Of a stretch of DNA of 37,172 nucleotides, positions 6,974-37,172 are shown piece by piece (position 1 is the first letter of the stretch; the number at the start of each line of letters is the position of its first letter). The translations under genes and the position numbers were made by a program. Under the pieces are notes generated by a model. It saw only the letters and a program-made list of their open reading frames with translations, did not search any database and was not told where the DNA came from. The stretch is from Cyanobacteria bacterium REEB446 (GTDB taxonomy: Bacteria; Cyanobacteriota; Vampirovibrionia; LMEP-6097). Location: NCBI GenBank assembly GCA_018970325.1, contig JAGWWP010000023.1, positions 1-37,172 of the forward strand, given 5' to 3'.

Positions 6974-6979
6974 TTGGCT

Positions 6980-8155
6980 ATGCTGATACCTCGAAAATTA
7001 TCAGAGAAATTATCTAATTCATTAAAACCAAAAAAAGTTTTAATGTTAGTAGGTCCAAGGCAGGTTGGTAAAACAAGCTTAATCAAGCAGTGCTTGGAGG
7101 GTACTCAAGGAGAAAAGAGGATGGATCTAAATGGTGATTTTTTGGCTGATAGAGAAATCCTTTTAAAAAAATCTAAGATTGAATTTGAAAACTTAATCGG
7201 CGATAGCTCTTTATTATTTATTGACGAGGCTCAAAAATTTGAAAATATAAATTTAACACTTAAAATTTTAGTAGATAATTTTCCTAGTTTGAAAATTATA
7301 GTCTCTGGCTCTGCTGCTTTTGAGTTAATGAGTAAGGTGCGGGAATCCTTGGCTGGAAGATTGATTAAACTAAATCTTTTCCCTATCGCTCAATTAGAGC
7401 TATCTGAAATCGAATCTAGAAGAGAAACTCAAGAGAATCTCTTTAGGAGAATGATTTATGGTTCTTACCCTGAAGTGATAACTTTAAAAACTGATAAAGA
7501 GAGGGAGGAGTATTTATATAATTTCGTAGAAGCTTTTTTATTTAAAGATATTTTCGAATACGAGGGTATTAAGAATTCTATTAAAATTAAAAGACTTTTA
7601 CAGCTTTTAGCTCTTCAGTTAGGACAGGAAGTTTCTCTTAGTGAAATCGGCTCAGAGCTTAGTATGGATAAAGAGACTGTGGCGAGGTATTTAGATTTAT
7701 TAGAAAAGACTTTCGTTATTTATGAAAGAGTAGGATTTAGTTCGGGGAATTTACGTAAAGAAATAAGTAAAACTAAAAGATATTATTTCTACGATAATGG
7801 CGTAAGGAATGTTCTCATTAATAATCTGAACTCTCTTGAGATACGTTCAGGTAAAGAGATTGGGCAGCTCTGGGAGAGTTATATTATTACTGAGAGGCTA
7901 AAGTACTTAAATTATAATGAAGATATTCCTCGGCAGAATAGTTATTTCTGGCGTACTTATAATCAGAGTGAAATAGATTTAGTGGAGCAGGGAGGAGTTT
8001 GCGAGCAGTCCCATAATTTAAATGCTTATGAAATTAAATGGACGGGAAAACCTTCTCTAGAGCCGCCTTCAGAATGGCGGAAATTATATCCTCAAGCGAG
8101 TTTCCTGCAAATTAATCGTGATAACTATTTAGAATTTATAGGAGCTGATTTTTAA
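6980..8155 (+). CDS. AAA-family ATPase with DUF4143 domain
   Basis: A 391-residue protein of the AAA_14/DUF4143 type: an N-terminal P-loop (GPRQVGKTSL, Walker A), Walker B LLFIDEAQ, the sensor-like SGSAAFEL, then a winged-helix region (about 215-255) and a C-terminal PD-(D/E)xK-like fold with EIDLVE ... AYEIKW. The family is widespread and often patchily distributed; its role is not settled, with proposals including mobile-element or conflict-related ATPases. The ATG at 6980 is chosen over a TTG at 6974 because of the promoter position. Oddity: between EIDLVE and AYEIKW an extra stretch including GVCEQSHN matches the end of the palindromic element family seen elsewhere in the window. Confidence 0.85.
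   Translation: MLIPRKLSEKLSNSLKPKKVLMLVGPRQVGKTSLIKQCLEGTQGEKRMDLNGDFLADREILLKKSKIEFENLIGDSSLLFIDEAQKFENINLTLKILVDNFPSLKIIVSGSAAFELMSKVRESLAGRLIKLNLFPIAQLELSEIESRRETQENLFRRMIYGSYPEVITLKTDKEREEYLYNFVEAFLFKDIFEYEGIKNSIKIKRLLQLLALQLGQEVSLSEIGSELSMDKETVARYLDLLEKTFVIYERVGFSSGNLRKEISKTKRYYFYDNGVRNVLINNLNSLEIRSGKEIGQLWESYIITERLKYLNYNEDIPRQNSYFWRTYNQSEIDLVEQGGVCEQSHNLNAYEIKWTGKPSLEPPSEWRKLYPQASFLQINRDNYLEFIGADF
7994..8012 (+). repeat. Palindromic element remnant (right end) inside the DUF4143 gene
   Basis: GGAGTTTGCGAGCAGTCCC matches the right terminus of the full element in ubiX (TTGCGAGCAGTCCC). It is read in frame as VCEQS, the same frame (CEQS) used in ubiX and the ABC ATPase. It lies in a loop between two conserved strands of the nuclease-like domain. 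Confidence 0.6.
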
Positions 8156-8847: not shown

Positions 8848-8881
8848 GGACTGCTTGCGAACTTCAATTTCTGCGTTTTCG
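8848..8881 (-). repeat. Palindromic element remnant between the response regulator and nth
   Basis: Read on the minus strand this is CGAAAACGCAGAAATTGAAG followed by TTCGCAAGCAGTCC, which matches the right half of the element in ubiX with a few substitutions. It starts directly after the stop codon of the response regulator, so the insertion may have set the present end of that gene. Confidence 0.7.
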
Positions 8882-9742
8882 TTAATCTTTTTTATTATTC
8901 TCTAATATGGATTTATTATTTTCTAACACAGAATTAATACTGAATCCCTTTAAATTACCATGTTTTAGCTGCTCCATAAGAGGATTTAATAATTCATCTG
9001 TAATTTTAAACATCGAATGAACTTCTGAGATATTATGGTGTTTGAGCTGTGAAAAGCTGTCCTGGATTATTTCTTTAAGCTCTTCTAATATCTCTTCTCG
9101 ACTTAAATCATCACTTAGATTATATTTCTCTTTTACTCGATAGAGTGTATTATTAATTCGCTTTCGAGTGCTGTTCATTTCTTCTGCTACGGTAGCCGTA
9201 CTTTTTCCGATAAGCAAAGAAGTGATTGTGCAGAATTCATAAAAAGTCATCTTCCCAATTTTTTTTAATGCACTTTGCTCTGACTGAGCGGAATCTATAT
9301 AAATACCTTTCTCGCCATGCTCGACTCGTTGAAGTATATCTAAAATAATGCTTTTATCAGTAGAGAATTTACCACCGAGGAAAACTGCTTCTAGACCTAA
9401 TTTTTCTGCTTTGTAGATAATAGAACTCTCGTAAGAAGCTGTAAATAGAATAATTTTAGTTTCAGGATTATGTTTTTTCATCCATTCGGCAAGTAGTAAG
9501 CCGCTGTTTTTAAGACCTAGATTCGATTCGCAGAGTTCGCCTAAGTAGCAGTCAAGCCAAACTAAATCAGGTTTATATTCCATGAAGGCAGATTCTGCAA
9601 GCTTGCTTGAATTGCAGAATGCTTTTATTTGAAAATCCTTTTCTAGAATGCCACTGATATAGTCCCAAGTTGTACATTGGTCTTCGACTACTATGGCTGT
9701 AGATTTTTCTTTATTCAATATTTTATTTTTTTCGTCAGTCAT
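8882..9742 (-). CDS. Orphan response regulator, REC plus LuxR-like helix-turn-helix
   Basis: A 286-residue regulator. The receiver domain (about 14-140) shows the acidic pair VVEDQ, the phospho-acceptor Asp in VWLDCYLGE, the Thr switch in LFTAS and the conserved Lys in GGKFS. It is followed by a LuxR/FixJ-type helix-turn-helix (about 165-215, TATVAEEMNSTRKRINNTLY) and a C-terminal tail unusual for the family, with the repeated motif SVLENNK/SILENNK. No histidine kinase is nearby. It is the last gene on the strand of the pilus operon, so control of pilus genes is plausible but only inferred from position. Confidence 0.8.
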   Translation of the reverse strand: MTDEKNKILNKEKSTAIVVEDQCTTWDYISGILEKDFQIKAFCNSSKLAESAFMEYKPDLVWLDCYLGELCESNLGLKNSGLLLAEWMKKHNPETKIILFTASYESSIIYKAEKLGLEAVFLGGKFSTDKSIILDILQRVEHGEKGIYIDSAQSEQSALKKIGKMTFYEFCTITSLLIGKSTATVAEEMNSTRKRINNTLYRVKEKYNLSDDLSREEILEELKEIIQDSFSQLKHHNISEVHSMFKITDELLNPLMEQLKHGNLKGFSINSVLENNKSILENNKKD

Positions 9743-17862: not shown

Positions 17863-18627
17863 ATGGCAGAGAAACATAAATCTATAATCCTTGGAATCAC
17901 TGGAGCAAGTGGTACTGTTTATGGTTTGCGTTTACTTGAATATCTTTTATCTCAGGGGACTGCTCGCAAACGTACAAATTCAAGGCTGAGGAGGACGAAT
18001 GACCGCAGTGTACTACAGATACATGAGGATCATGAGGACGACGAAAACGCAGAAGTTGAAGATTGCGAGCAGTCCCCTCAGGGTTATGTTGTTGATGTAG
18101 TTTTCTCTAATAATGCTCTGAAGGTATCTAAGCTTGAATTAGATCAAGACTGGGAAGGCTTAAATGTGCAACTGCTTAAACAAGCAGTATTGGAACATCT
18201 TTTCAAGAATTCAACTGCTTTAGATATTGATGCAGTGAAGAAACGAGTAAATTTTTGGCATGAATCCAATATAGCAGCGAGCATCGCAAGCGGCTCTTAT
18301 CAAGTAGAAGGGATGGTGGTGAGTCCCTGTAGCGTTGGTACTCTTGCGCATATCGCTCTGGGAACTAGTCATAATCTGATTTCTCGTGCAGCTGATGTCA
18401 TGCTCAAAGAACGTAAGAAGTTAATTTTAGTAGTCAGGGAGACGCCTTTCAGTTCTATTCATTTGAGAAATATGCTCACATTAAGCGATGCAGGCGCAGT
18501 GATTTTACCTGCGATTCCAGCTTTTTACCATAGACCTCACTCTATTCAAGACCAGGTTGATTTTATTACTGGTAAGACATTAGATTCTTTTGGCATAGAT
18601 TCAGATTTATTTAAACGCTGGAGATAG
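17863..18627 (+). CDS. ubiX: Flavin prenyltransferase UbiX, with a 42-residue in-frame insertion
   Basis: UbiX makes the prenylated FMN cofactor used by UbiD-type decarboxylases, in ubiquinone and related pathways. Family blocks are complete: LGITGASGTVYGLRLLEYL (N-terminal flavin loop), SNIAASIASGS, MVVSPCSVGTLAHIALG, LISRAADVMLKERKKLILVVRETP and LPAIPAFYHRP. Without the insertion the protein would be 212 aa, close to the family size. Residues 32-73 come from a palindromic element inserted in a loop directly after the first helix, and the frame is kept, so the enzyme may tolerate it. No ubiD neighbour. No Shine-Dalgarno is visible before the ATG. Downstream is the exonuclease gene with 62 bp between. 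Confidence 0.92.
   Translation: MAEKHKSIILGITGASGTVYGLRLLEYLLSQGTARKRTNSRLRRTNDRSVLQIHEDHEDDENAEVEDCEQSPQGYVVDVVFSNNALKVSKLELDQDWEGLNVQLLKQAVLEHLFKNSTALDIDAVKKRVNFWHESNIAASIASGSYQVEGMVVSPCSVGTLAHIALGTSHNLISRAADVMLKERKKLILVVRETPFSSIHLRNMLTLSDAGAVILPAIPAFYHRPHSIQDQVDFITGKTLDSFGIDSDLFKRWR
17956..18076 (+). repeat. Complete palindromic mobile element inside ubiX (121 bp, CTCAG flanks)
   Basis: The ends GGGACTGCTCGCAA and TTGCGAGCAGTCCC are perfect 14-bp inverted repeats (15 bp counting one flanking base each side). The element is bounded by CTCAG at 17951-17955 and 18077-18081, a likely 5-bp target duplication; 121 + 5 = 126 bp keeps the ubiX frame. The interior reads as a peptide with [12 protein letters not shown] and [11 protein letters not shown], which recurs in the same frame in the ABC ATPase. 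It encodes no transposase, so it must be mobilised in trans if it is mobile. Confidence 0.8.
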
Positions 18628-22149: not shown

Positions 22150-22199
22150 GGGCGTGTAGCCAAACGAACAAGTTCAAGCTTTTTGCAGCAGTCCCTGAG
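22150..22199 (+). repeat. Decayed palindromic element, GGGCGTGTAGC type
   Basis: GGGCGTGTAGCC followed by ACGAACAAGTTCAAG matches the left end of the element copy in the ABC ATPase gene; the remainder is lost and the sequence jumps to GCAGCAGTCCC, like the other end. It fills the gap between the rpoD terminator and the next promoter. Confidence 0.7.
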
Positions 22200-24740: not shown

Positions 24741-25784
24741 ATTAAGGATTTAAAGAAAAATATTATTAGATTACTAGTATCCGCTTTATTATTAGTGATT
24801 TTTTTGCAGGTATTTAAATTTAATCCTAAAAGCTTTATAGATAAGATTTTGCAGCTCGATTTAAGGTTCTTTGCTTTAGCATCTTTTTTTAGCGTGCTTA
24901 CGATTGTGACTAATACTTACCGTTGGTGGATCATAACTAAAGGTTTTAATTATAAAATTTCTTATTGGACTGGTTTACTTTGGTATTTTGAAGGCATGTT
25001 TGCGAATAATTTTTTCCCTAGTAATGTAGGCGGAGATGCTTTAAGAGCCTTTTACTTAGGCACTTTAAAACACGCTGCTGATAAGCAGGATAGTGAAAAC
25101 GCAGAAATTAAAGATTCACGGCAGGCCGATGAAGGGATTGCGAAATCTAAGCACTATCATGACTGGCTTTCAGCAGGCTTGACGGTAATTCTAGAAAGAT
25201 TATTCGGCTTTACTATGATGTTTTTCTTTTTCCCGCTTTCTTTGATTTTCATCTATTCACAAAATTTATCTCATACTATGCCAGAGAGACTTATTCAGGC
25301 TTTATTTATTTTATCTATAGTGCCTTTCTTTGCATTTTTCGGTTACAAGATATGGATTAAAATCCCTATTCCTCTTGCGATATTTCAGAAAATTAAAATC
25401 GCAGTAAGTGAGTTTATTGTGCATAAGCGTTCTGTTTGGACAGTCTTGTTATGGACTTTTATTACGCATGTTTTTTTAATGGCGGTAAATGTTTTTTCAG
25501 CATTAGCTTTGGGTGTAACGCAGATACCTTTTTGGTACTGGTTTTTAGTGGTGCCGCTCGCTACGCTCGCTAGCTATGTCATCCCTGCGGTAAAAGGGCT
25601 TGGTGCACGTGAAGCTACTTACGTGTTTTTATTGAGTATTATTGGAGTTAGCTTTGATCACAGCTTCGCTATTGCGGTTACTGTATTTTTAGCGACTTTG
25701 GTTTCCTCTGTTCCTGGTATTAGCTTAGTGCGGAAAGGTAGGGAGATATTTAGTATTTTTAAGAATCCGCTGAAAAATGCTTAA
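24741..25784 (+). CDS. Flippase-like membrane protein (LPG synthase TM region / UPF0104)
   Basis: An integral membrane protein of the AglD2/UPF0104 family, related to the membrane part of lysylphosphatidylglycerol synthase and to putative lipid flippases. Family marks: FFPSNVGGDALRAFYL near the first third, then LERLFGF, and VIPAVKGLGAREATYVFLL near the C-terminus. It has about seven to eight hydrophobic segments. Start problem: the first standard start is GTG at 24795, inside the first membrane helix, but the frame is open from 24738 and an ATT at 24741 has AAAGAGG 7 nt upstream and gives KDLKKNIIRLLVSALLLVIF, a typical N-terminus. A loop carries an element remnant (SENAEIKDS). Confidence 0.82.
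   Translation: MKDLKKNIIRLLVSALLLVIFLQVFKFNPKSFIDKILQLDLRFFALASFFSVLTIVTNTYRWWIITKGFNYKISYWTGLLWYFEGMFANNFFPSNVGGDALRAFYLGTLKHAADKQDSENAEIKDSRQADEGIAKSKHYHDWLSAGLTVILERLFGFTMMFFFFPLSLIFIYSQNLSHTMPERLIQALFILSIVPFFAFFGYKIWIKIPIPLAIFQKIKIAVSEFIVHKRSVWTVLLWTFITHVFLMAVNVFSALALGVTQIPFWYWFLVVPLATLASYVIPAVKGLGAREATYVFLLSIIGVSFDHSFAIAVTVFLATLVSSVPGISLVRKGREIFSIFKNPLKNA
25095..25120 (+). repeat. Palindromic element remnant inside the flippase gene
   Basis: GAAAACGCAGAAATTAAAGA matches the CGAAAACGCAGAA block of the full elements and is read as ENAEIKD, the same frame as the ENAE peptide in ubiX and the ABC ATPase. It lies in a hydrophilic loop between two membrane segments. Confidence 0.6.
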
Positions 25785-27923: not shown

Positions 27924-27950
27924 TTTCTCATTGACGAAGAGGTATGAAAC

Positions 27951-28211
27951 TGGTGCTTGGAAGCAGGATTGAACGGACGGGCCTCTTCATTACCAATGAA
28001 ATGCCACTAACGTGGCAATTTGCTACGCAAATGAGTGAATTTTCACCTGTAGAGCACTTCATTGATGAAGAGGGTGAAACTGGTGCTTGGAAGCAGGATT
28101 GAACGGACGGGCCTCTTCATTACCAATGAAATGCCACTAACGTGGCAATTTGCTACGCAAATGAGTGAATTTTCACCTGTAGAGCACTTCATTGATGAAG
28201 AGGTATGAAAC
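27951..28211 (-). repeat. Two tandem copies of a tRNA-Thr 3' half joined to a hairpin chain
   Basis: Copies at 27951-28080 and 28081-28211 (130 and 131 bp) are nearly identical. Read on the minus strand each carries the anticodon arm and acceptor 3' half of tRNA-Thr including CCA, but with a T-arm stem that no longer pairs (GTCCG against CTGCT). Upstream is a chain of four perfect short palindromes. In copy 1 they are CTTCAT-TG-ATGAAG (28057-28070), GTGAA-TT-TTCAC (28035-28046), ATTTGC-TAC-GCAAAT (28018-28032) and TGCCAC-TAAC-GTGGCA (28002-28017). The copies lack the acceptor 5' strand and a D-arm and so cannot be working tRNAs. They lie directly 3' of the intact tRNA gene. Confidence 0.85.
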
Positions 28212-28286
28212 TGGTGCTTGGAAGCAGGATTGAACTGCCGACCTCTTCATTACCAATGAAGTGCTCTACCACTGAGCTATCCAAGC
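28212..28286 (-). tRNA. tRNA-Thr (anticodon GGU)
   Basis: The minus strand folds into a full 75-nt cloverleaf with encoded CCA: acceptor GCTTGGA/TCCAAGC (7 perfect pairs), D-arm GCTC...GAGC, anticodon stem CTTCA/TGAAG around the loop TTGGTAA (anticodon GGT, reading ACY Thr codons), variable loop of 5, T-arm GGCAG-TTCAATC-CTGCT and discriminator A. It is the one intact copy in a cluster of partial copies on both sides. No promoter could be identified. Confidence 0.95.
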
Positions 28287-28480: not shown

Positions 28481-28525
28481 GGAACTGTTTGCAAATATAC
28501 ACGTTCAAGTCCGAGGAGGAATGAA
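28481..28525 (+). repeat. Decayed left end of a palindromic element
   Basis: GGAACTGTTTGCAAATATAC followed by ACGTTCAAGTCCGAGGAGGA aligns with the first about 45 bases of the ubiX element (GGGACTGCTCGCAAACGTAC, then AAATTCAAGGCTGAGGAGGA). The rest is missing. It lies 50 bp before the peroxiredoxin gene. Confidence 0.6.
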
Positions 28526-29314: not shown

Positions 29315-30371
29315 GTGCCCCCAATATTAGAAATTAAAAATCTCAATAAAACTTATAAGTCTGGTTTTAAAGCACTTGATGATATTAATCTTGAAATTCA
29401 AGAGGGTGAAATTTTTGCGATTTTAGGTCCAAATGGCGCAGGGAAGACGACGTTAATAAGTTCTATCTGCGGAATTACTAATCCAAGTTCTGGGACTATT
29501 TCGGTGAAAGGTTTTGATCATACTGAAAATTACCGAGAAGTAAGAAAAATGATTGGTTTAGTGCCTCAAGAATTAACTACAGATATGTTTGAGAAAGTAG
29601 TTGATACCGTTAATTTTTCTAGAGGCTTATTCGGTCTTCAGTCTAATAAACTATATATCGAAAGGATTCTGGAAGACTTATCCTTAAGTGATAAAAAAAA
29701 ATACTCAAATTAAAGCCCTCTCTGGCGGCATGAAGCGTAGAGTGATGATAGCTAAGGCTCTTGCGCATGAGCCTGAAATATTATTCTTAGATGAGCCTAC
29801 AGCAGGGGTAGATGTAAAATTACGAGAATCTATGTGGGAGTCAGTCGCTCAGCTGCGTAAAAATGGGGTTACTATAATTTTAACTACCCACTATATTGAA
29901 GAGGCTGAAAAAATGGCAGATAGAATTGGCATTATAAATAAAGGAAAAATTATTTTAGTTGAAGAAACTAAGACCTTAATGAAGAAGCTCGGTAAAAAAG
30001 AGCTGATATTCAGCTTCGTAGAGAAAATTAATTCTATACCAGAATCTCTGAGACGCTTTAATCTTCGGCGAGATGGTGATAATTTTATTTATTCCTATAA
30101 TGAAAATGCAGAAATTGGAGATTGCGAGCAGTCCAGTGGGCGTGTAGCCGAACGAACAAGTTCAAGGCTGAGGAGGACGAATGACCGCAGTGTACTGTGG
30201 GTACATGAGGATCATGAGGACGACGAAAACGCAGAAATTGGAGTTCCGCTACACGCCCGTAATGGACTGAATAGTTTAATAAAATCTATTAATGATTTAG
30301 GTATTTCTTTTAAAGATCTTGAAACGAAGCAGACTTCTCTAGAGGATATTTTCGTTCAGTTGGTGGAGTAG
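29315..30371 (+). CDS. ABC-2 export system ATP-binding protein, frames joined across an A9 tract
   Basis: Cytoplasmic ATPase of a two-gene ABC exporter with the permease 3 bp downstream. Walker [10 protein letters not shown] lies in the first frame (29315-29713, GTG start); the signature LSGGMKRR, Walker [13 protein letters not shown] and switch His TTHYIEEA lie in a second frame. The frames meet at an A9 run (29693-29701): removing one A gives [13 protein letters not shown], the expected sequence. A tract of this length is typical of transcriptional slippage, so a full protein may still be made. The C-terminal third carries two successive palindromic element insertions (about 55 residues) between YSY and GLNSLIKS, outside the nucleotide-binding core. 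Confidence 0.8.
30106..30268 (+). repeat. Palindromic element copy next to an older element end, inside the ABC ATPase
   Basis: Bases 30102-30135 are the right end of one element (GCAGAAATTGGAGATTGCGA, then GCAGTCC). Directly after it sits a complete second copy with different termini: AGTCCAGTGGGCGTGTAGC on the left and, at the right, GCTACACGCCC (30248-30258) followed by TGGACT. The core ([19 protein letters not shown]) is shared with the ubiX copy in the same frame. So the second copy landed in or beside the remnant of the first. Confidence 0.75.
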
Positions 30372-30374
30372 TAG

Positions 30375-31136
30375 ATGAATTTTCAGGCAATTAAATCAAT
30401 ATATAACTTTGAGATGGCAAGAATGTGGCGTACTATAACACAAAGCCTTGCTTCTCCAGTAATTTCAACTTGTCTTTATTTCATTGTGTTTAGCTCCACA
30501 ATTGGTTCTAAGATTAGCGAAGTCGATGGAGTTTCTTATGCCGCCTATATAGTTCCAGGGCTTATAATGCTTTCAGTTTTAACGCAGAGTATTTCTAATG
30601 CTTCATTTGGAATTTATTTCCCAAGATTTACTGGGACTATATATGAAGTACTTTCTGCGCCTATTTCGTACATTGAAATTCTATTTGGTTATGTAGGTGC
30701 AGCTGCTTCTAAGTCTTTTATTCTAGGAGCTGTAATCTTTATTACCGCAAGATTCTTTGTGGATTTTAATGTAGACTATCCACTTTTAATGATTATGTTT
30801 TTTATTCTTACTTGTATAACTTTTAGCTTGATTGGTTTTATTATCGGTATTCTTGCTGAAAATTTTGAACAATTAGGGATCTTTCCATCATTAGTAATAA
30901 CGCCTTTAACTTTTTTAGGTGGTAGTTTTTATTCGATAAATATGCTGCCAGAGTTTTGGAGAAATATTTCGTTACTTAATCCAGTGCTTTATCTTGTGAA
31001 TGGCTTTAGATGGAGTTTCTATGGTGAATCTGATTTGAATCCAATTATAAGCTGTATTATGATCTCAGTTTTTCTTATTATTAGCTTACTTACGATTCGT
31101 TGGATATTTAAAACTGGTTATAGGCTTAAGGCTTAA
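30375..31136 (+). CDS. ABC-2 type permease
   Basis: A 253-aa membrane protein with six hydrophobic segments, paired with the ATPase just upstream. Recognisable ABC-2 features are AAYIVPGLIMLSVLTQSI after the first helix and, before the last helices, FLGGSFYSINMLPEFWRNIS ... NPVLYLVNGFRW, the conserved motif of the NodJ/DrrB-type permeases. Substrate unknown; such pairs export lipids, glycans or drugs. The gene has no visible frameshift, which suggests that the system is kept despite the break in its ATPase. Confidence 0.88.
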   Translation: MNFQAIKSIYNFEMARMWRTITQSLASPVISTCLYFIVFSSTIGSKISEVDGVSYAAYIVPGLIMLSVLTQSISNASFGIYFPRFTGTIYEVLSAPISYIEILFGYVGAAASKSFILGAVIFITARFFVDFNVDYPLLMIMFFILTCITFSLIGFIIGILAENFEQLGIFPSLVITPLTFLGGSFYSINMLPEFWRNISLLNPVLYLVNGFRWSFYGESDLNPIISCIMISVFLIISLLTIRWIFKTGYRLKA

Positions 31137-31175
31137 GAGGACGATGAAAACGCGGAAAATGGAGTTGTACAGTGG
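31137..31175 (+). repeat. Palindromic element remnant between the permease and purU
   Basis: GAGGACGATGAAAACGCGGA followed by AAATGGAGTTGTACAG corresponds to the GAGGACGACGAAAACGCAGA block and right end of the element in the ABC ATPase. It starts at the permease stop codon and fills the convergent gap. Confidence 0.65.
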
Positions 31176-31181
31176 TCTCTC

Positions 31182-32054
31182 TTAGTCGAAGACTAAGGTT
31201 TTTCCGTCGTGGACTATGATTTTATCTTCCGCATGAGCACGAATCGCTTTTGCTAGAACCTGCTTTTCTATATCTCGGCCTTTTGAAATATAGTCCTCGA
31301 CAGTATCACGGTGATCTATGTTTATAACACCTTGTTCTATAATAGGTCCCATGTCTAAATCTTCAGTTGCATAATGTGCAGTAGCTCCGATGATCTTTAC
31401 ACCTTTGTCATAGGCTTGGTGATAGGGTTTTGCACCCTTGAAAGATGGCAAGAAGCCATGGTGTACATTGATAATTCGATATGGATATGAGTTTATAAAC
31501 TGTGGGGTGAGAATTTGCATGTAACGAGCAAGAGCGATAAAGTCTATCTCAAGCTCTTGCAGCCTTTTTATGATTTGAGCTTCTTGATTGAGTTTGCTGT
31601 CGTAGCTAGCCTTTGTGCTATCGCTAATTTTTTCTATTGGATAATATTCAAAAGGAATATTAAATGCGGTAGCTACATGCTTAAGATCTAGGTGGTTACT
31701 GATAATTACTGGTATCTCGACATTTATCTCGCCATATTGTTTACGTAAAAGCAGGTCATAGAGGCAGTGATCGTATTTAGAAACTAGTACTGCCATTTTC
31801 TTCGTATGGTGTGAAAATTTGAAATTCATTGAAAACCTAGCTGCAATTGAGCTGAAGGCTGAATTTAAATCTTCTATTTTGATATTGAATTTAGTCGCAT
31901 CGACTAAAACTCGCATAAAAAAATGAGCAGTTAACCCAGATGAATACTGCTGTGAGTCTATGATATTCCCATTATTCTCTGAAATAAAGCCACTGACAGC
32001 ATTTACTATGCCTTTTTGATCGAAGCAGTCTATAAGTAGTGTGAATTTATTCAT
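31182..32054 (-). CDS. purU: Formyltetrahydrofolate deformylase
   Basis: PurU hydrolyses 10-formyl-THF to formate and THF, balancing one-carbon pools. The 290-aa protein has an N-terminal ACT domain (about 3-80, LLIDCFDQKGIVNAVSGFIS) and a C-terminal formyltransferase fold with ALARYMQILTP, the catalytic INVHHGFLPSFKGAKPYHQA (Asn and His) and ATAHYATEDLDMGPIIEQ (catalytic Asp). Length and order match the family. It is downstream of ileS on the same strand; the 44 bp between them are filled by a palindromic element remnant, and no Shine-Dalgarno is visible. Confidence 0.95.
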   Translation of the reverse strand: MNKFTLLIDCFDQKGIVNAVSGFISENNGNIIDSQQYSSGLTAHFFMRVLVDATKFNIKIEDLNSAFSSIAARFSMNFKFSHHTKKMAVLVSKYDHCLYDLLLRKQYGEINVEIPVIISNHLDLKHVATAFNIPFEYYPIEKISDSTKASYDSKLNQEAQIIKRLQELEIDFIALARYMQILTPQFINSYPYRIINVHHGFLPSFKGAKPYHQAYDKGVKIIGATAHYATEDLDMGPIIEQGVINIDHRDTVEDYISKGRDIEKQVLAKAIRAHAEDKIIVHDGKTLVFD

Positions 32055-32057
32055 AAG

Positions 32058-32097
32058 GATTATGAGGCGGGCGAAAACGCAGAAATTGAGTAGTCCT
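32058..32097 (+). repeat. Palindromic element remnant between ileS and purU
   Basis: GGATTATGAGGCGGGCGAAA followed by ACGCAGAAATTGAGTAGTCC aligns with GGATCATGAGGACGACGAAA, then ACGCAGAAATTG of the full copies. It occupies almost the whole intergenic space, including the region just before the purU ATG. Confidence 0.7.
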
Positions 32098-36232: not shown

Positions 36233-37172
36233 TTAATAAGCAGTCGGCATTTTTGGTGGTTCTGGCACTCTTAAATTCTTTTTATTGTTAACTTGTTCGG
36301 GATAATTTGGCAGTAAATCTGGAACCCCTTTGACAGGATTTTCGGAAATAGAGTTTAGTGCCACTACTACACCAACAATATACAAACAACTAACAAGTGT
36401 TCCCTTTACTGAACCGACTAAAATCTCTTTTGTCCACTCTAAAGCAATGTTCTCAGGCATCCTTTTATTGAGGAAGGTTTTTAATTCATTAGGGCTTAGT
36501 TCTTCATTAGCAGTCTTCATTATCAGCTCTACTGTTTCTTTTTTAGGCATCATGTCTTTTGGCCGCAGGACATGTTGCTTAAAGAAGGTGTTTAATTCAT
36601 AAGCGTTTAGTTTCTTAACAGCAGTCTTCAGTATCAGCGCTACTGTTGCTTCATTACCCCTCCATGCTGCAACTAGTAAAGCGTTATCGCCATTTTTGTT
36701 AGTCCGAGTAAGGAAGGTTTTAAATTTATCAGGGCTTAGTCTTTCATTAGCAGTTTTTAGTATCAGCTCTAATGCTTTATTACCCCTCCATGCTGCAACT
36801 AGTAAAGCGTTATCGCCATTTTTGTTAGTCCGAGTAAGGAAGGTTTTAAATTCATTAGGGCTTAGTTTTGCAATAGCAGTATTCACTATCAACTCTAATG
36901 CTTTTTTATCACCATTCCATGCCGCATGTATTAAAGCGTTGTCGTCATCTTTGTTAGTCTGAGTAAGGAAGGTTTTAAATTCATCAGGGTTTAGGATTTT
37001 TTCTGCTACATTAAGTATCAATTCTACTGTTTCTTTATTACCATTCAATACTGCACGCATTAAAGCATTATTGCCATATTCGTCAGTTTGAGTGCGAAGT
37101 TTTTCTAATTCTCCAGTAGGTAGTTCTGCAAGATTCATCATATGTTTAAAATCTTCAGCACGATCTCTACTC
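36233..37172 (-). CDS. Ankyrin-repeat protein with C-terminal membrane helix, 5' end outside the window
   Basis: The frame continues without a stop to the right edge, and the residues before the ATG at 37141 (DFKHMMNLAELPTGELEKL) still follow the repeat pattern, so I read the gene as entering from beyond the window. At least four ankyrin-like repeats of about 42-44 residues are visible (GDNALLVAAWRGN ... ELILKTA ... LSPDKFKTFLTRTNKN), longer than the usual 33. A membrane helix near the C-terminus (VKGTLVSCLYIVGVVVALNSI) is followed by a Pro-rich tail. Ankyrin proteins of this kind are common in host-associated bacteria, but a role is not shown here. Confidence 0.7.
   Translation of the reverse strand, partial: SRDRAEDFKHMMNLAELPTGELEKLRTQTDEYGNNALMRAVLNGNKETVELILNVAEKILNPDEFKTFLTQTNKDDDNALIHAAWNGDKKALELIVNTAIAKLSPNEFKTFLTRTNKNGDNALLVAAWRGNKALELILKTANERLSPDKFKTFLTRTNKNGDNALLVAAWRGNEATVALILKTAVKKLNAYELNTFFKQHVLRPKDMMPKKETVELIMKTANEELSPNELKTFLNKRMPENIALEWTKEILVGSVKGTLVSCLYIVGVVVALNSISENPVKGVPDLLPNYPEQVNNKKNLRVPEPPKMPTAY
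36649..36860 (-). repeat. Recently duplicated repeat unit within the ankyrin gene
   Basis: Stretches beginning ATTACCCCTCCATGCTGCAA near 36653 and near 36779 are almost identical for about 80 bp, at a period of 126 bp (42 codons). The neighbouring repeats are more diverged. One copy lacks a codon (GNKALELIL against GNEATVALIL), so the unit was duplicated recently and has already changed. Confidence 0.7.

Follow-up and report, generated by a model that had tools for sequence, protein, structure and literature searches.

A 121-bp palindromic repeat dispersed through the genome of a Cyanobacteriota bacterium is probably a non-autonomous mobile element, one that inserts in the manner of a MITE and is conserved as the fold of a single strand. 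Insertion takes place at a WTNAW-like target with a 5-bp duplication, for a net gain of 126 bp (42 codons). The sense strand can form a hairpin with a terminal stem that is complementary yet free in sequence, a core of Watson-Crick pairs and tandem G-A steps, and a hypervariable apical loop. Copies inside genes lie almost only in sense phase 1 and shrink by in-frame deletion, which mostly removes the 5' half as far as the apical hairpin; they also gain and lose steps of 126 bp, so that remnants inherit the frame of full copies.

The DNA analysed (the window, 37,172 nucleotides) is an entire contig (C33) of a draft genome of 2.25 Mb in 97 contigs. Its UbiX matched DUDT01000010.1 (Candidatus Melainabacteria bacterium) and JABSOS010000004.1 (Candidatus Caenarcanales bacterium), and the genome belongs to the genus of the former (DUDT01) and the family of the latter (JABSOS01). 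The host is therefore a non-photosynthetic, Caenarcaniphilales-like member of the Cyanobacteriota ('Melainabacteria'). The UbiX matches and the identity of the contig rule out a rickettsial origin of the window, and the element thus lacks one attribute of Rickettsia palindromic elements (RPEs), namely occurrence in Rickettsia.

One of the full copies lies in ubiX (17863-18627, plus strand), a gene present once in the genome that encodes a flavin prenyltransferase (PF02441, E = 1.6e-39). This copy (17956-18076, plus strand; nhmmer alignment to element columns 2-121) is translated in sense phase 1. The ubiX of G001, a sister species in the same genus, is an empty site, relative to which the window gene carries an insertion of exactly 126 bp, made up of the 121-bp element and a second CTCAG; the left and right copies of this duplication occupy 17951-17955 and 18077-18081. 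Outside the insert, the two UbiX proteins are 97% identical. On the plus strand, the terminal stem P1 joins a 5' arm at 17956-17971 (GGGACTGCTCGCAAAC) to a 3' arm at 18061-18076, and the apical hairpin P2 with its hypervariable loop (columns 54-68) is located at 18009-18023. The earlier note had placed such inserts in surface loops. Consistent with this, when UbiX is modelled by AlphaFold with its insert (mean pLDDT 85.5), the fold is retained at high confidence and residues ~32-73, the insert, are predicted to be a disordered loop that connects helix 1 to strand 2 (pLDDT ~50).

The second full copy (30138-30258, plus strand; nhmmer 2-120), which belongs to an arm subfamily with GGGCGTGTAGCC, is also in phase 1, within an ORF for an ABC-type ATPase (29688-30371, plus strand) that matches the C-terminal part of the domain (PF00005, E = 6.7e-10). 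A 3' remnant (30100-30134, plus strand; columns 86-120 by nhmmer) is found directly upstream of it. Two further genes contain in-frame 3' remnants: a lysylphosphatidylglycerol-synthase-like flippase (25081-25127, plus strand; nhmmer 74-120; host PF03706) and an AAA_14/DUF4143 ATPase, where a 19-nucleotide stub (GGAGTTTGCGAGCAGTCCC) was recognised from its sequence (7994-8012, plus strand; host PF13635 and PF13173). By their coordinates, every copy in these four genes has the same strand and element phase, just as the earlier note had read them. The remaining matches are an intergenic 3' remnant (8848-8882, minus strand; nhmmer 86-120), two intergenic 5' fragments (22150-22178, nhmmer 2-29, and 28481-28520, nhmmer 2-40, both plus strand), a 3' remnant that overlaps the end of the gene before it (31127-31178, plus strand; nhmmer 69-120) and a remnant between genes that nhmmer aligned to columns 65-104 (32050-32089, plus strand). 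Element sequence is therefore present at all nine places that the note listed, as two full copies and otherwise as 3' remnants or 5' fragments, and the palindromic family that it proposed is real and more extensive than those nine places.

Tandem repeats of other kinds were also seen in the window. Positions 27928-28286 hold three tandem units of ~130 bp that adjoin or include a tRNA gene (Rfam tRNA, 28215-28286, minus strand), apparently a partly decayed tRNA tandem array. At 36330-37166, about five repeats of ~129 bp (43 codons) lie within a minus-strand ORF (36233-37141) for a repeat protein.

In a whole-genome pattern search, the 3' core gave 288 matches versus 10 for a reversed-pattern control and the 5' core 87 versus 1, or about 280 and 85 copies, and BLAST of the genome recovered at least 41 near-full copies. 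The family is not a product of chance, and its length falls within the 100-150 bp range of RPE-like repeats. Profile searches of 378 kb fetched around the matches found at least 49 full, 139 3'-only and 41 5'-only copies at 165 loci among the matches listed, statistics that describe a sample of loci picked for carrying the element. The 5-nucleotide flanks of 47 ungapped copies are identical at a rate of 0.681, versus 0.389 when shuffled (z = 10), and the test gave nothing comparable when the length was changed or the flanks were shifted. The consensus target is roughly W-T-N-A-W. The target-site duplication thus has a fixed length, 5 bp, as in MITEs; the terminal inverted repeats are not conserved in sequence, the arms varying (almost completely in G006, a genome of the same family) yet staying complementary. 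Given that 126 bp is 42 codons, each insertion leaves the length of a gene in register, so that phase and stops alone decide its effect. Tandem arrays of the element likewise have a period of 126 bp.

An alignment of 60 copies from the window's genus and G006 gives a hairpin of 41 pairs, 28 of which change on both sides, although the copies are related by descent and such counts are not independent. The covariation score is 0.348; shuffling lowers it to 0.124, and sliding the partners never gives more than 0.105. All 16 pairs of P1 covary, having changed on both sides, and covariation in P2 is seen at 55-67, 56-66 and 58-64. The arms differ among copies while remaining complementary; the window genome has a few arm subfamilies, and in G006 practically every copy has its own arm on the same core. 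Within the core, pairs 35-87 and 41-81 occur as three or four Watson-Crick types, with nearly invariant tandem G-A/A-G steps between them; in some copies from G004 and G005, read by eye, Watson-Crick pairs replace one such step. As tandem G-A steps are not palindromic in duplex DNA, the selected form must be the sense strand alone. Wobble pairs in P1 agree with a sense-strand fold (49 G-U versus 19 A-C, p = 0.0004), and the mean predicted hairpin energy is -46 kcal/mol. The fraction of minor bases is 0.021 in the core, about ten times higher in the arms (0.27) and 0.47 in the apical loop, and in the core it is 0.018, 0.029 and 0.017 at codon positions 1, 2 and 3. Because the three codon positions vary about alike, the conservation is not that of a peptide; on the evidence of these alignments, the conserved feature is the nucleotide fold of the sense strand, as RNA or single-stranded DNA. 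The fold does not belong to a known Rfam family: covariance models gave no match over the element at lenient E-values in the window, in four loci from other genera or in three from another class.

Among the matches listed, 43 of 49 full copies are stop-free in sense phase 1 and 34 of 49 in antisense phase 1, and other frames are almost never open. Thirty-one of the 49 lie in long ORFs (stop-to-stop, as in all our frame counts, and with no fewer than 100 residues contributed by the host), where 30 are in sense phase 1 and one is antisense (p = 4e-7 for the sense over the open antisense frame, given open frames). Fragments of the 3' end, which at 35-50 nucleotides are stop-free in most frames, are in sense phase 1 in 74 of 85 cases in long ORFs among the matches listed. 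Sense-to-antisense ratios within genes are 30:1 for full copies and 80:5 for 3' fragments among those matches, versus 3:2 and 13:8, both small numbers, for intergenic copies between codirectional genes. The orientation bias therefore belongs to the genes and is most simply explained by selection after insertion. Random frame and orientation were not seen in this count across the genome sample, and the RPE-like behaviour proposed in the earlier note, in-frame insertion into functional genes in one fixed strand and frame, is borne out by these counts for full copies and 3' fragments alike. As for the fixed frame itself, which the note had ascribed to selection for an open, soluble peptide or to a coding requirement, the pattern is genuine and its cause lies largely in the stops that close four of the six frames. 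The 30:1 preference over the open antisense frame needs an additional cause, which is probably selective.

The genes that carry the element do not look like pseudogenes. All 30 host ORFs scanned matched Pfam families, most of them with long matches to core enzymes or transporters, which goes against the possibility raised in the note that most hosts are decayed. They include aminoacyl-tRNA synthetases (glycyl-tRNA synthetase beta, GlyS, and class I enzymes of valyl, ValS, and glutamyl, GltX, type), the metabolic enzymes GMP synthase (GuaA), PurH, ArgJ, PdxA, RibD and UbiX, and signal peptidase I, a RadA-like ATPase, TrmD, an EF-Tu-type GTPase and DabA. AAA_14/DUF4143 ATPases recur as hosts (window 6974-8155, loci L003 and L015), possibly as a large and tolerant family in this genome. 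The 30 full copies in long sense ORFs show insertion in frame into conserved, intact protein genes, as in RPEs, and dozens of genes, many of them essential, carry the element as 42 extra codons with the frame intact.

Comparison with sister species reveals how the shorter copies arise. Among the matches listed, 3' remnants start mostly at columns 68-91 and rarely enter the apical hairpin. On contig C53, the window genome has lost 81 bp, in frame and ending at column 68, at a site where the copy in G001 is still full and perfectly duplicated at its flanks; on C49 the loss is internal and in frame, 54 bp between short GCAG repeats. On C55 a solo remnant in one species corresponds to a remnant plus a whole 126-bp unit in the other, and on C90 the difference between the solo remnant and the remnant with an extra unit is 144 bp, including an added 18-bp repeat (both sizes determined by hand). 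A 3' remnant followed after a few bases by a full copy is found at ~18 loci, and the opposite order, with the two close together, did not occur among the matches listed. Where a check is possible, at least, 3' remnants are thus products of decay or recombination of in-frame full copies and not truncated insertions in their own right, and they share the frame of full copies because they arise from them by in-frame deletion. We considered whether solo 3' remnants might be short palindromes with a hidden 5' arm, and rejected this on finding no clear upstream excess of complementary arms, ~9 internally deleted copies being the exception. Long elements with a gene between their halves were likewise not found, split copies holding only a ~70-nucleotide module. 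In ten long variants (190-200 bp), the apical loop holds an additional structured module; in L176, L180, L181, L219 and others, this module of ~70 nucleotides takes the place of the apical hairpin and has its own covarying stem and conserved loops, with sense phase 1 mostly still open.

By covariance model, each of the nine genomes in the family carries the element, although five of them had no BLAST match; it was also detected in four genomes of a second family and, weakly, in a third. None of the remaining 368 genomes in the class sample matched the model, and 4 of 18 genomes from a separate small class were positive in a phylum sample and follow-up. In the other genera that carry the element, most copies are intergenic. 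The core is open in the sense frame in 86 of 86 copies from the window's genus, versus 12 of 13 in G006, 4 of 9 in G004, 3 of 7 in G003 and 5 of 8 in G005, and it is in the window's genus, by the look of these numbers, that the element has specialised in residing within genes. An exact core 16-mer (GAATGACCGCAGTGTA) also occurs in seven IMG/VR viral contigs (L351-L357), such that carriage by phage is possible. We found no account of such elements in this bacterial group in the literature.

If the element were kept in genes for a useful peptide or some coding requirement, its fixed frame across many unrelated genes would follow, and remnants do retain the acidic half of the peptide and lose the basic half. 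However, the core has no codon-position signal, the fold is kept in genera where copies are mostly intergenic and the frame is often closed, the sister species does without the insert in ubiX, and the insert itself is predicted to be disordered. We therefore regard this explanation as unlikely. Removal of the element at the RNA level, or its bypass by the ribosome, would leave the host protein normal and accommodate a very stable predicted hairpin inside essential genes, but copies within genes would then have no need to be stop-free, in frame and 126 bp long, and between-species changes in coding copies would not be expected to come, as they mostly do, in multiples of three; such an escape seems highly improbable. 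A SINE-like retroposon, whose RNA would be reverse transcribed from within a host mRNA and inserted, would account for the RNA-like fold and, by 5' truncation during insertion, for the excess of 3' over 5' core matches (288 versus 87) and for 3' fragments that seldom extend into the apical hairpin. It is already disfavoured and, in our estimation, very unlikely: no match to RVT_1 (PF00078) was found in the element-rich draft genomes G000, G001 and G004 (93, 88 and 96% complete), 3' remnants keep the frame of full copies in 74 of 85 cases even though most other frames are open to them, and orthologues show such remnants arising by deletion.

A more serious contender, though one we consider less than even in likelihood, is an ordinary MITE, whose terminal inverted repeats would be read as double-stranded DNA by a DDE transposase, the fold being incidental and the arm subfamilies reflecting several transposases. 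DDE recombinases make staggered double-strand cuts, and it is to such a cut that the exact 5-bp duplication and the near-palindromic target point; the small number of arm subfamilies in the window genome and the missing reverse transcriptase also fit. A double-strand-cutting transposase normally needs fixed ends, however, and variable arms suit it poorly, above all in G006, where nearly each copy combines a different arm with the same core. The core's covariation, moreover, is that of a folded single strand, and its G-A pairs do not make a palindrome in duplex DNA. A search for a cognate transposase with PF01609 and PF01797 found one intact DDE_Tnp_1 gene, which lacks a matching transposon end: it lies in an intact insertion sequence (L376, G000:C50:7-1278) that encodes a 388-residue DDE transposase and is bounded by perfect 20-bp ends (AGGGCTGTCTCATTCTAAAA) bearing no relation to the element, and was rejected as its parent. 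Mobilisation by a RAYT was rejected as well, as the Y1 transposase domain (PF01797) had no match in G000, G001 or G002 of the window's genus. In G015, from the second family with the element, ~59 DDE_Tnp_1 matches in a 2.5-Mb genome indicate a large expansion of insertion sequences.

In the mobile-element reading that we favour, insertion would take place in every phase and orientation, and those insertions that bring stops into needed genes would be purged, fixing the frame, with translated copies persisting as a disordered surface loop. The drifting but complementary arms suggest that the ends are read as structure. A putative recombinase acting in trans would recognise the sense strand in its folded form, together with the conserved internal loops, and this could explain why the arms drift in sequence and not in complementarity. 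More tentatively, the element may represent a separate class of bacterial mobile element, in which the selected unit is a folded single strand (RNA or single-stranded DNA) with two conserved internal loops read by the machinery and complementary arms of free sequence, and in which sense insertion into expressed genes is part of the life cycle.

Palindromes with coding capacity have reportedly been described in Rickettsia by Ogata et al. in 2000 and 2002, and in Methanocaldococcus jannaschii by Suyama et al. in 2005. REP and BIME sequences are dispersed hairpins moved by RAYT (Y1) enzymes and thought to be read as folded single strands; the present element is similarly a dispersed hairpin, but has 121 bp and a 5-bp duplication, in a genus with no Y1 match. 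RPEs are multicopy palindromes of 100-150 bp with a long stem-loop and tolerated in-frame insertion in housekeeping genes (PMC2229807, PMC10969869), and the element resembles them in size, palindromy, copy number, stem-loop and in-frame insertion. It belongs to another phylum and has no known sequence relation to them, the likeness being one to reviews' descriptions. Table 1 of PMC2229807 enters the target duplications of RPEs as unknown; the present element differs in its demonstrated 5-bp duplication and empty sites, in arms that are free in sequence and covary, and in the genome-wide dominance of one phase and strand. Wolbachia palindromic regions, in frame in addA, addB and priA and mostly without stops (PMC4224334), are comparable gene insertions in an unrelated host lineage, for which the literature reviewed does not describe comparable covariation or duplication data. 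The element works like the coding palindromes of Rickettsia and Wolbachia (PMC2229807, PMC10969869, PMC4224334), a likeness in mode of working and not a claim of family membership; in the literature reviewed, neither is described as having a 5-bp duplication, empty sites, observed decay, arms of free sequence or a fold specific to one strand. PARCELs and the M. jannaschii palindromes are also palindromic repeats with coding potential inside genes (PMC2996958), but PARCELs are tandem 25-residue repeat domains, often of membrane proteins, and the hairpin core found here is described for neither. ERIC/RU, Correia/NEMIS, RUP and other MITEs have 100-200 bp, inverted repeats, stable stem-loop transcripts and some in-frame fusions (PMC2229807). 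Table 1 of PMC2229807 lists these with TA dinucleotides at their termini and with inverted repeats that are defined, unlike this element, whose ends vary from copy to copy and whose duplication is 5 bp.

How the coding palindromes of Rickettsia and Wolbachia move, how they come to land in frame and what they do to proteins has been unexplained since 2000. Here, sister species supply empty sites, intermediates and decay products, from which insertion, filtering and deletion can be read directly, and the strand-specific covariation, in identifying a folded single strand as the selected form, limits where the enzyme needs to be sought. Within a single genome, moreover, essential enzymes are seen to accept a 42-residue insert again and again. 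The element is thus a new example, and one much more open to analysis, of a behaviour for which Rickettsia and Wolbachia have been the main sources.
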